28,949 nt of DNA from a virus. The translations under genes were made by a program, and so were the position numbers. The notes under the pieces were generated by a model. It ran no database searches. It saw nothing but the letters and a program-made list of their open reading frames with translations, and was not told where the DNA came from. This document shows positions 25,283 through 28,684 of the stretch, piece after piece (positions within the stretch are counted from its first letter, which is position 1; every line of letters starts with the position of its first letter). The stretch spans positions 1 to 28,949 of IMG/VR virus record IMGVR_UViG_3300017917_003737. The stretch is one strand, 5' to 3'.

Positions 25283-27247
25283 TTATCTTACTAAAAGTCC
25301 GTTTGAATAACTTGAAGAAACTAGGTAACTAGTTCCTGTTATATCGTATCCTGAAGAAATTTGATCTGGTTTTGTATTAATGACTGTTTTAGATGAATCA
25401 AGTTGTAAGTATAAATCTTGCAGTCCTATTACATCATTAGAATATGGAGAGGCGGAAATTTCTATTAAAGGAAATCCTCTATTAATGACAGTGTTTGTAA
25501 TATTAATTGGAGAAAGTTTAATTTCTCCCTTAACATAATCAATGGTTCCAATGTTTTTTCTAACAATTTCTGGTTGTGTAGGTGAAAATAATCTAAAGAG
25601 AAAAATGGATCCAGTTTGTTTATCCTGATTTGCTACATCTGAAAGATATACTGTGCCAGGAATTCCACTAACATTAAATCCAGAAGACTTGATGTTAAAA
25701 CTATTTTCACTAATACCATTAATATTTAATCCAGAATATTCCATATTAATGACTTTTTCGTCTTTAATATGGAATCTATTTCCAAAGCAAATTTCATATT
25801 CAGCAAAACTATTTAACACAACTCTCATATCCCTTCTCATGATAATAGTTGTGATATTGGATGTAATTGAATCACTGCTATCATCAATTACCTTTAGAAA
25901 TTTGCTGTATTTGAATCTGGCACCAAACTTATTAAGTTCTGTTGATTGAGCATATCTATCAACTGTATTAGAAATAATTGTAGAAACCGAATTTGCTGAT
26001 TGTGCTAAATTTGTATTATAATATGCATTAATTGTTGGTTCAATATAAAGATACTTAAGATCGATAATTTCTGGAACAATTCCTGCTACAGAATATTTCT
26101 TGAGTTCTCTCTTTATATTATCTTTAATATAGTTGGATAAGTATGCGCCATTTGCAGGTTTAATACTGATATAAACCTTTCCAAACTGAGGGGGAGTTAA
26201 CTCCTCTCCACCAAATGCAGAAATAGATTCTGTTTCATTGTATATACTTGGAACAATGGCTTCATAATCTTTTGCAGTTACTGCTCTATTTTGAGATGCA
26301 TAAATTCTAGATGCATACTTTTTAATAGATTCTACACCTTCAATATCTTTACCAAAAGCAGAAATTTGATTCGTTGTAATCAGAGAAATTCCAGCAGCAG
26401 CGGGAGTATTTTCTCTTGGAGAGATGATTTTTCCACTAAAATTGAATTGAGAGATATTATTTGCTGCCTCCCCATTTGAAACCAAATAAGACACTTCAAG
26501 ATAGTTTGGAGACTGTAATTTGGTTCCAAATACACCATCTCCAAATATTAATTCATATCTTTCATCTTCAATTTCTTGTACAAAGAATACTGGAGAGTCT
26601 GGAGTTATAGTGAATAAACTATCTGCTTGAATATATTTTCTATTAATATCTGCAGAAACGTTTGGTTTCCAAACTACTCTTATTGATGAGGTATCAATTT
26701 GAGAATTTGGAAGAATAAATCTCTGATTAGGATCGTATGAATCTACTGTAAATGTTGTAGTGATATAAGTGCCTTCATAAACATCGATACTGTTAAATGA
26801 TGCAATGTTATCAACTACAGGAACAGTGATATCATCAAGAATAGAAAAAGTATAACTCTGATTCCCAAAGGCAGATGTAGAACAAATAACGCCTTTTTTG
26901 AGAGTTAAAGTTTGTGGTTTTGTTGGATATGCAGTAGAGTTTGAGGTATCTACAAAGAAGGATATATTTGCTTTCGACGATTTTCTAGATTTTGGAACAT
27001 AACCAATATTTCTAGCAAGAGAAACTACATTTTCTCTAAGGGTTGCGCTATCAATAAAAACTTCATTTGATACCATATTGGCATTGTATGAAGTAATATA
27101 AGTGTTATATGCCAAAACATCAAGAATTACAGATAAATTAGATCCCTCAAAATCATAATCCGTGAAATTTGAGTTGGATCTAAGATAATCTTTAATAGAT
27201 GTTTTAATCTGATCGAAATCTAGATTTGTAAAATTAACTAGTGGCAT
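25283..27247 (-). CDS. 6: Baseplate wedge subunit gp6 (baseplate J-like)
   Basis: gp6 forms the continuous ring that connects the wedges around the baseplate hub. The N-terminal block (NFTDYDFEGSNLSVILDVLA, then YNTYITSYNANMVSNEVFI, TLRENVVSLARNIGYVPKSR, about residues 27-108) aligns with T4 gp6 (FLDYDFEGSRLNVLCDLLAYNT, NLRSSVVQAAQDNGYLP). The middle region fits the baseplate-J fold: YELIFGDGVFGTKL, then AVTAKDYEAIVPSIY, KVYISIKPANGAYLSNYIKD, and YSVAGIVPEIIDLKYLYIEP. At 654 residues it is essentially the T4 length (660), so it has not been expanded like its neighbours. Its ATG overlaps the gp25 stop (TAATG), and one base separates its stop from gp7, suggesting a coupled gp25-gp6-gp7 unit. 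I see no GxGY or TSGA modules here. Confidence 0.96.
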   Translation of the reverse strand: MPLVNFTNLDFDQIKTSIKDYLRSNSNFTDYDFEGSNLSVILDVLAYNTYITSYNANMVSNEVFIDSATLRENVVSLARNIGYVPKSRKSSKANISFFVDTSNSTAYPTKPQTLTLKKGVICSTSAFGNQSYTFSILDDITVPVVDNIASFNSIDVYEGTYITTTFTVDSYDPNQRFILPNSQIDTSSIRVVWKPNVSADINRKYIQADSLFTITPDSPVFFVQEIEDERYELIFGDGVFGTKLQSPNYLEVSYLVSNGEAANNISQFNFSGKIISPRENTPAAAGISLITTNQISAFGKDIEGVESIKKYASRIYASQNRAVTAKDYEAIVPSIYNETESISAFGGEELTPPQFGKVYISIKPANGAYLSNYIKDNIKRELKKYSVAGIVPEIIDLKYLYIEPTINAYYNTNLAQSANSVSTIISNTVDRYAQSTELNKFGARFKYSKFLKVIDDSSDSITSNITTIIMRRDMRVVLNSFAEYEICFGNRFHIKDEKVINMEYSGLNINGISENSFNIKSSGFNVSGIPGTVYLSDVANQDKQTGSIFLFRLFSPTQPEIVRKNIGTIDYVKGEIKLSPINITNTVINRGFPLIEISASPYSNDVIGLQDLYLQLDSSKTVINTKPDQISSGYDITGTSYLVSSSYSNGLLVR

Positions 27248-27648
27248 TATCGTGTTGGCTGTAATGCAAATGATAATTGTTGTGGTTGTGCGTCAATTCC
27301 AACGATATAATATTTAATTGTGACGTTTAATTCGCCGTTATCATAATCCGGAACTGCATCGACTGATATTAATTCAACTCTAGGTTCATAGTTTTTAATA
27401 ACATTTTCAATTTCATCTCTAACTGATGATGCAGTAATGTCATCTAATGACTCAAATAACAAAGAATTCACTCTTGAACCTAAGTTGCTATCAAAAAATC
27501 GCTCACCTCTGTTAGTAAGAACGAGATTACGAACAGAACGAGCGATTGCATTCTCATTTGTAAGCGCAATCAAATCATAGGTTAAAGGATTAACCTGAAA
27601 AGACATGCTAATGTCTTTAAATGACTTACTGACGCGCTCTACGGGCAT
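27247..27648 (-). CDS. 25: Baseplate wedge protein gp25 (GPW/gp25 family)
   Basis: gp25 is the lysozyme-like wedge protein that links gp6 to the sheath and starts sheath assembly. The family signatures are ARSVRNLVLTNRGERFFDSN (36-55), LGSRVNSLLFE (56-66) and the EPR triad at residues 88-90 in NYEPRVELISVD. Length is 133 residues, as expected for the family (T4: 132). The start MPVERVSKSFKDIS is one I associate with marine T4-like phages. A second ATG at residue 15 is possible but would remove that conserved start. No convincing Shine-Dalgarno precedes the chosen ATG (TTATAATATTCA), although a late-promoter-like box lies 20 bases upstream. The stop overlaps the gp6 start. Confidence 0.96.
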   Translation of the reverse strand: MPVERVSKSFKDISMSFQVNPLTYDLIALTNENAIARSVRNLVLTNRGERFFDSNLGSRVNSLLFESLDDITASSVRDEIENVIKNYEPRVELISVDAVPDYDNGELNVTIKYYIVGIDAQPQQLSFALQPTR

Positions 27649-27668: not shown

Positions 27669-27676
27669 TATTTATT
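27669..27676 (-). promoter_or_regulatory. Late-promoter-like box upstream of gp25
   Basis: The minus strand reads TAATAAATAAGA, giving AATAAATA (one mismatch from the T4 late box). Its first two bases are the last two of the TAA stop of the 84-residue gene. It would initiate the whole baseplate block gp25-gp6-gp7. Activity is inferred. Confidence 0.55.
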
Positions 27677-27929
27677 ACCCTTTTATGGATCCATAAGTTG
27701 GTTCAGTACCATAATCCCAGTCATCATAGTCGTCATCATTACGAATTTTTTCATGAATTTCGTTTTGATGGAAAAAATCATGTTTTTTGGGAGTTAAATC
27801 GTCACTTGCAATCTCACGAAGCATCTTTTGCTTCTCAATTTTACCTTCCCAACCGTATTCTGATGCTAAAAATTGAGTTCCCCACTCATTTTTCATAAAA
27901 TTTTCGTCCTTATCGACTTGTTTTGTCAT
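27675..27929 (-). CDS. Hypothetical acidic-tailed protein (84 aa)
   Basis: I do not recognise a function. The protein is soluble and charged: MTKQVDKDENFMKNEWGTQF, then LASEYGWEGKIEKQKMLREI, then DDLTPKKHDFFHQNEIHEKI, and an acidic, aromatic tail RNDDDYDDWDYGTEPTYGS. There is no signal peptide, membrane segment or cysteine motif. It has a good Shine-Dalgarno (AGGAG, six bases before the ATG) that is partly enclosed in a hairpin. It is followed directly by gp25 and, unlike the upstream small genes, is not overlapped at its start. A plus-strand frame of 97 codons covers the same bases but has no comparable start signal. I associate proteins like this with the position before gp25 in marine T4-like phages, but that is memory, not a search. 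Confidence 0.82.
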   Translation of the reverse strand: MTKQVDKDENFMKNEWGTQFLASEYGWEGKIEKQKMLREIASDDLTPKKHDFFHQNEIHEKIRNDDDYDDWDYGTEPTYGSIKG

Positions 27930-27961: not shown

Positions 27962-28180
27962 TTACGGGGTTTCTATCCCGAAATCTGAGATATTTTGTCG
28001 ATTAAAAGTATAATTTTTTTGAATTCTAATGTCTCTGTTGTTAAATACCCAACATTCTCCTGTATTATCTAGGAAGACAACCCATTCCAAGTCATGTTCT
28101 TGTGAACGATCTATCATAAAAAATGCCCAACCCTTACCTTTGGGGGTAAGAACTGGGATTTGTGGATTAAGTTGTAGCAT
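27962..28180 (-). CDS. Hypothetical small beta-rich protein (72 aa)
   Basis: The sequence is MLQLNPQIPVLTPKGKGWAF, FMIDRSQEHDLEWVVFLDNT, GECWVFNNRDIRIQKNYTF, then NRQNISDFGIETP. The alternating hydrophobic pattern and the PxxTPKGKGWAFFxID and DNTGECWVFxN elements suggest a compact beta barrel or sheet of about 60 residues. I recall similar small proteins in marine T4-like phages, all without known function. The ATG lies inside the end of the SET gene (14-base overlap), with no strong Shine-Dalgarno, so translation is likely coupled. After its stop come 32 bases containing the hairpin and ribosome site of the next gene. Confidence 0.82.
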   Translation of the reverse strand: MLQLNPQIPVLTPKGKGWAFFMIDRSQEHDLEWVVFLDNTGECWVFNNRDIRIQKNYTFNRQNISDFGIETP

Positions 28181-28538
28181 TTTTAGTGCTTAGTGCATCT
28201 TCTTCAAAAGGAAAAGTCAACTCTTCACCTTCTTTTATGTCTCTTAGGGCAAATATTTCATCACTAGTGCCGCCAACATTAGGATGTTCGCTCCAATTAA
28301 TAAAACGATCATGATCAAATGGGAATCTATGCATATTAGTAACGGGATCTAACCACCCATAGTGAAGAATATATTCTTGTGCCTTCTGCGGTAATTCAGA
28401 AAATTGTTCTGGTGTCCATTCTCGATCAAGTCCAGGAGTAAACTCCCAGACTTTAGTTCCTTTTGGAATGAATTCAGATGCAAACATTCCAAATCCATGA
28501 ATAGAACTTTTTTCGAGATAGGACTTAATCAATAACAT
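28167..28538 (-). CDS. SET-domain protein (putative lysine methyltransferase)
   Basis: All three SET motifs are readable in a 123-residue protein, about the size of the minimal chlorella-virus vSET (119). They are IHGFGMFASEFIPKGTKVWE at 13-32 (GxG, S-adenosylmethionine binding), INWSEHPN at 80-87 (counterpart of NHSxxPN), and FALRDIKEGEELTFPF at 96-111 (counterpart of AxRDIxxGEELTxDY). SET proteins transfer methyl groups from S-adenosylmethionine to lysines. Two points are unusual: the His of NHS is Trp here (NWS), and the Tyr that normally ends the GEELTxxY motif is Phe111, so activity is uncertain. There is no post-SET cysteine cluster. The insert at 40-70 (WTPEQFSELPQKAQEYILHY) is helical. 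The ATG overlaps the upstream stop (TGATG) with AAGG nearby. The substrate is unknown; a phage virion or host protein is possible. Confidence 0.88.
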   Translation of the reverse strand: MLLIKSYLEKSSIHGFGMFASEFIPKGTKVWEFTPGLDREWTPEQFSELPQKAQEYILHYGWLDPVTNMHRFPFDHDRFINWSEHPNVGGTSDEIFALRDIKEGEELTFPFEEDALSTKNATT

Positions 28539-28684
28539 CAGCCCTTACCTTGCCCGCGATATTTCTTTTTACGTCCATTACGAGAAGTTGCGCTGAGTAA
28601 TGTACGAGCTGAGCGTCCTTGTCGAGTTTTCTTAGGTGCTCCAGATTGAAAAGATACTTTACTACTTCCACCAACTTTAGCCAT
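28538..28684 (-). CDS. Highly basic small protein (48 aa)
   Basis: This short frame encodes MAKVGGSSKVSFQSGAPKKT, then RQGRSARTLLSATSRNGRKK, then KYRGQGKG. About 13 of 48 residues are Lys or Arg and only Gly, Ser and Thr rival them; there is no acidic residue, so the protein is strongly cationic and probably disordered. A strong Shine-Dalgarno (GGAGG, seven bases before the ATG) lies within the end of the upstream gene, and both ends overlap neighbours by one or more bases (TAATG at the start, TGATG at the end), which supports it being real. Nucleic-acid binding is a plausible inference from charge only; a substrate of the adjacent SET protein is a speculative alternative. I recall near-identical small proteins in marine T4-like phages with no assigned role. 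Confidence 0.87.
   Translation of the reverse strand: MAKVGGSSKVSFQSGAPKKTRQGRSARTLLSATSRNGRKKKYRGQGKG

Follow-up and report, generated by a model that had tools for sequence, protein, structure and literature searches.

The question raised by the end of IMG/VR virus record IMGVR_UViG_3300017917_003737 is how a SET-domain protein may act when the histidine of its NHS motif and its catalytic tyrosine have both been replaced. The whole 28949-base record, hereafter the window, was analysed, and the gene in question was located on its minus strand. A preliminary description made from the DNA letters had proposed a minimal SET domain of 123 residues at 28167-28538, with the Asn of NHS retained, the His replaced by Trp and the catalytic Tyr after GEELTxx replaced by Phe; the domain was recovered by profile search, and each of the three residue assignments was reproduced by alignment. 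The protein is maintained, and strong purifying selection acts on the one clade in which the Trp/Phe pair is fixed; SET proteins normally methylate lysines, and this one is probably a repurposed, weak or inactive form of such an enzyme. The gene and its active-site positions, which were assigned by alignment to MLL proteins and SET relatives, are as follows.

28167..28538, minus strand: SET-domain protein, 123 amino acids (aa), ATG start; Pfam SET PF00856, E 1.6e-12
28488..28496, minus strand: Gly15-Phe16-Gly17, the GxG cofactor motif, retained; in the alignment G17 is invariant and G15 is present in at least 90%
28440..28442, minus strand: Phe33, aligned with Set1 Tyr967 and SET7/9 Tyr245 (residue roles from PMC3585878)
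28290..28298, minus strand: Asn81-Trp82-Ser83 (codons AAT TGG AGC) where Asn-His-Ser is expected; Trp invariant in 5 distinct clade members
28206..28214, minus strand: Phe109-Pro110-Phe111, placed by alignment to relatives and MLL proteins (codon TTT)

The Pfam match spanned residues 15-109 and scored 48.2 bits against a curated cut-off of 22.4. No match was obtained in PHROGs, and comparison with 50,697 phage records at E values up to 1e-3 returned only two matches, both distant (36% and 28% identical). An AlphaFold2 (AF2) model built from 18 sequences gave a predicted local distance difference test (pLDDT) score of 87.9 and a predicted template modelling (pTM) score of 0.76, residues 114-123 forming a low-confidence tail. 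A SET fold was predicted, and the top structural match in the PDB was vSET (PBCV-1 A612L; PDB 3kma, 1n3j), likewise a minimal single-domain SET of about 120 aa (3kma: Z 12.0, root-mean-square deviation 2.3, 97 residues aligned). Identity over this match was 25%, and model residues 3-111 were placed on chain residues 3-105, ranges that give the end residues only; the phage protein differs from vSET in having Trp for the NHS His and in ending the aligned stretch with Phe, opposite Tyr105 of vSET, which we take to be its catalytic tyrosine. Small bacterial SET proteins (for example L012, L014 and L011) are equal in length, carry the motifs SxIHGxGxFA and KGTKVWEF and are 30-40% identical over the alignment. 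The gene is best explained as a phage-borne minimal SET domain of bacterial type. No cyanobacterial-labelled locus occurred among the 10 loci from the genome-contig scan, in which no search was aimed at cyanobacterial genomes as the source of the SET gene.

Residues 79-83 of the protein read FINWS and residues 105-111 read EELTFPF, so that Phe111, after GEELTxx, occupies the position of the catalytic Tyr (Set1 Tyr1054, SET7/9 Tyr335) and Phe109 that of the Phe/Tyr switch. The cofactor-binding residues of active SET methyltransferases (G15, G17 and Asn81) were thus all present, and the His of NHS and the catalytic Tyr were absent, with Trp82 and Phe111 in their places. As residues 33, 109 and 111 are all Phe, no hydroxyl is available at the three canonical tyrosine positions of the lysine channel, and the channel would be lined by the aromatic residues F33, W82, F109 and F111. 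Phe33 is normal in the subgroup, being Phe in 10/10 bacterial relatives (L011-L020), and the clade-specific peculiarity is Trp82 together with Phe111. These same ten bacterial proteins all retain NH and Tyr, unlike the window protein; His and Tyr are likewise retained, unlike in the window clade, by the contig relatives of the Synechococcus phage SETs (SynMITS9220M01, S-B05 and Sf-CH1b).

The same gene was found on eight viral contigs (L001-L008), with proteins 77-93% identical to that of the window; together with the window these give five distinct proteins, with NWS and FPF in 5/5. Searching with a degenerate DNA pattern that covers NWS and its surroundings gave the same eight contigs and no others. 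The clade has branch support of 100/99 and a long stem. Comparison of relatives at Phe111 had been proposed as a check in the preliminary description and was run as two counts. The first comprised 57 rows (the five clade proteins, four other phage proteins, ten bacterial loci and 38 rows from 39 further loci), from which fragments below 60 aa and identical sequences had been dropped and in which at least one gene (L011 and L142) was counted twice, in a trimmed form. Positions 82/111 were His/Tyr in 48 rows, Trp/Phe in the five clade rows, Glu/Tyr in two, Asn/Tyr in one and His/Asp in one, Tyr thus standing at 111 in 51/52 of the rows outside the clade. The second count covered 90 loci with 61 distinct viral SETs: 59 were His/Tyr, L208 was His/Phe and L209 (two loci) was NYS without a residue aligned at 111. 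Phe at this position is therefore not general in the subgroup, since SET relatives almost always keep His and Tyr, and the view that all relatives carry it does not hold. Nor is it entirely confined to the clade, but the Trp/Phe pair occurred in none of the other rows compared.

Pairwise ratios of non-synonymous to synonymous substitution (dN/dS) were about 0.07-0.15 (dN 0.03-0.16 against dS 0.23-1.8; ten comparisons over 117 codons), those from several pairs being rough because dS was near or above 1. HGFG, KGTKVWEFTPGLDREW, RFPFDHDRFINWS and EELTFPFEEDALS were invariant across the five clade sequences, as were Y7, Y56, Y60 and Thr34. Besides changed specificity and a non-catalytic lysine reader, the preliminary description had offered the use of another Tyr, for which these three invariant tyrosines would be the candidates. 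A decaying gene or a sequencing artefact might have been suspected from two unusual residues, and it is now very improbable: the frame is open, identical residues recur on separate contigs, and gene decay was ruled out by the low dN/dS among five distinct sequences that share Trp82 and Phe111.

How such a pair could arise is suggested by studies of other SET enzymes. In the accessible text of PMC3585878, His297 of SET7/9 is implicated in positioning Tyr335; since the NHS His is reported to position that Tyr, we infer that the pair changed as a unit. Trp and Phe would together have taken the places of the His and the catalytic Tyr and been retained by selection, and the protein would still bind S-adenosylmethionine (SAM) and a lysine-bearing peptide, with weak or no methyl transfer, and act mainly by binding. 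To this reading, of a SAM- and peptide-binding SET protein, we give close to an even chance. It is suggested by NWS/FPF in all five clade sequences and by the pair being found nowhere else, by the low dN/dS, by the retention of GxG and Asn81 and by the vSET fold match. By analogy, MLL5 and yeast Set1 also point this way. MLL5, in the accessible part of PMC5094779, has Phe at the same Tyr position, RR for NH, GxG and Asn lost and the peptide cleft occluded, binds no SAM and is inactive; in Set1 both of the bulky substitutions tried for the NHS His, His1017Leu and His1017Arg, are null (PMC3585878, accessible text). The MLL5/SETD5 family thus shares with the phage protein a Phe at the catalytic Tyr position and an altered NH motif.

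Several points weigh against weak or absent transfer. In the available portion of PMC3585878, Set1 Tyr1054Phe retains 45/28/3% of mono/di/trimethylation and His1017Ala reaches or exceeds the wild-type level, neither residue thus being indispensable; Tyr967Phe, at the position of Phe33, retains 50/1/4%. The comparison with MLL5 is only partial, because MLL5 lost GxG and Asn and the phage protein keeps both. The pocket motifs, moreover, rank with the most strongly conserved parts of the clade's sequences, which fits an active enzyme too. A pure scaffold, a SET fold that binds neither SAM nor lysine and acts through its surface only, has a precedent in MLL5 (PMC5094779, accessible part), and the change of some residues in the active-site motifs would agree with it; as the clade shows no variation in GxG, Asn81 or the pocket motifs around them, this is improbable.

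The other reading of some weight is a working lysine methyltransferase of altered product or substrate specificity, in which a wider, hydroxyl-free aromatic channel would favour a different degree of methylation or a lysine that already bears methyl groups. The retained SAM motifs and the strong selection are consistent with it, and in the accessible text of PMC3874154 Suv4-20h2 is active without the conserved active-site tyrosines, its lysine being held by Ser161 and a hydrophobic pocket. Thr34 could, purely as a guess from position, be the equivalent of Ser161. In the phage protein, however, three canonical channel hydroxyls are missing at once and the His has become a bulky residue, and Suv4-20h2 has the SET-C tyrosine Tyr217 in its channel (PMC3874154, same portion). 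Suv4-20 was set aside as a close parallel, since Suv4-20h2 keeps this tyrosine. Altered specificity is nearly as probable as the first reading; a protein that binds but transfers little or nothing is, we infer, slightly the more likely of the two. By its residues the phage clade would stand between the known cases, with cofactor residues as in active enzymes, three channel tyrosines changed to Phe and His changed to Trp. A clade in which both residues are swapped at once, together with its His/Tyr relatives, forms a natural experiment on the need for the pair in SET chemistry.

The genomic setting was examined for possible partners. On its minus strand the window carries a cluster of T4-like baseplate and neck genes, and the named DNA closest to it comes from a marine single-cell virus fragment and from the Synechococcus phages S-SM2 and SynMITS9220M01 (about 71-74% identity, over small parts only). 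It is likely to come from a phage of cyanophage type, because the nearest named DNA includes these two Synechococcus phages. The genes around the SET gene are listed below; gp8, neck and sheath-stabiliser genes were also found close by in the Pfam/PHROGs searches.

28538..28684, minus strand: small Lys/Arg-rich protein, 48 aa, directly upstream of SET; its stop overlaps the SET start (TGATG)
27962..28180, minus strand: 72-aa protein, immediate downstream neighbour of SET, whose 3' end it overlaps; frequent in related phages without SET
27675..27929, minus strand: 84-aa protein with no assigned function (open reading frame (ORF) call, no Pfam-based name)
27247..27648, minus strand: gp25-like baseplate wedge subunit (Pfam GPW_gp25, E 3.1e-15; phrog_261, E 2.6e-53)
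25283-27247, minus strand: gp6, a virion gene near the SET ORF (Pfam/PHROGs searches)

The best 80 of 220 matches to the 72-aa protein were used as loci. Among these 80, SET was present in 6, and the basic gene lay at most 60 nt from the 72-aa gene in 63. SET was also absent from 15 related contigs of 36-215 kb. L054, which has SET, and L057, which has none, aligned at 81% until the basic gene ends and again, at 76%, from a point slightly within the 72-aa gene; SET therefore fills a gap of about 370 bases. The slot holds other cargo as well, namely purM in SynMITS9220M01 and S-SM2. The SET gene is optional cargo in a variable slot, and the closeness of virion genes therefore says little about the SET target. 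The preliminary description had the gene beside virion genes, which is correct as to location; as a pointer to virion targets the position is weak, the slot holding purM or a speD-like frame in relatives. That frame, at L006:5602-5943 between the SET and 72-aa genes and gp25, is presumably an S-adenosylmethionine decarboxylase (speD), to judge by its motifs. A SET-carrying phage may thus also have a SAM-consuming enzyme in the same slot.

A second cyanophage SET lineage was found in this place. The SET protein of SynMITS9220M01 is about 28% identical to that of the window and is encoded between a small basic gene and gp25, and a scan with it returned 80 loci. Among 44 of these (L163-L206), 41 include gp25 in the locus, downstream of SET, and 37 have the small basic gene as the immediate upstream neighbour of SET, 14-108 nt away; the exceptions to the latter were L176, L177 and L205, with another gene upstream, and four loci with only 82-168 nt of upstream sequence. 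The SETs of L163-L206 are all His/Tyr and form a family that is widespread in T4-like cyanophages, its usual place being between the small basic gene and gp25. In the free tree, which was built from 33 of 61 viral representatives and 13 bacterial rows of our choosing and included the columns of residues 82 and 111, the two cyanophage lineages fell on opposite sides of a 96/89 branch; one common clade for both was not rejected by the approximately unbiased (AU) test (p-AU 0.104). The tree proves neither a common nor a separate origin.

Within the window clade the basic gene abuts SET in 7/7 records examined, with the TGATG overlap in the window, L001 and L002. Its product has the conserved core PKKTRQG...TSRN..KKxYRGQG and is cyanophage-wide, with relatives across Synechococcus phages. 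Since a divergent His/Tyr SET lineage occupies the same position, the basic protein may be a partner or substrate of SET, and the recurrence of SET genes immediately behind one and the same small basic gene makes it a concrete candidate. The basic gene and SET form a repeated neighbourhood, as either a functional pair or a cargo hot spot. The basic protein is also widespread without SET, and no lysine specific to SET carriers was seen among regex-selected sequences (123 loci with a match), the conserved core being the same in 35 distinct sequences from SET loci and 48 from non-SET loci. In one more elaborate scheme, which we regard as doubtful, the histone-tail-like basic protein and SET would be a pair: the His/Tyr lineage would methylate the basic protein, and the window clade, with a separately acquired SET that had lost its writer chemistry, would read or shield the same protein or its methylated lysine.

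Phage SET proteins are already known as annotations. For this place in the genome, one record is annotated as a SET-domain lysine N-methyltransferase, and several named Synechococcus phages carry only a hypothetical protein. No study of a SET protein in a cyanophage was found in the open-access literature searched, and the word 'phage' is absent from the accessible part of a review of bacterial SET proteins (PMC3980110).

Other altered SETs were noted in passing. Among phages, L208 keeps NHS and has Phe for the catalytic Tyr, and L209 and L210 have NYS with a shifted C-terminal Tyr region; L161 is a second SET about 2 kb from L011 in the same Phycisphaerales genome, with NHS kept and WND at the catalytic Tyr position. 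Phage SETs outside this slot adjoin other genes. In L213, L218 and L247 the SET gene begins 12-17 nt after another ORF, whose end looks like a ribonucleotide reductase C-terminus by its CxACEG-like motif.
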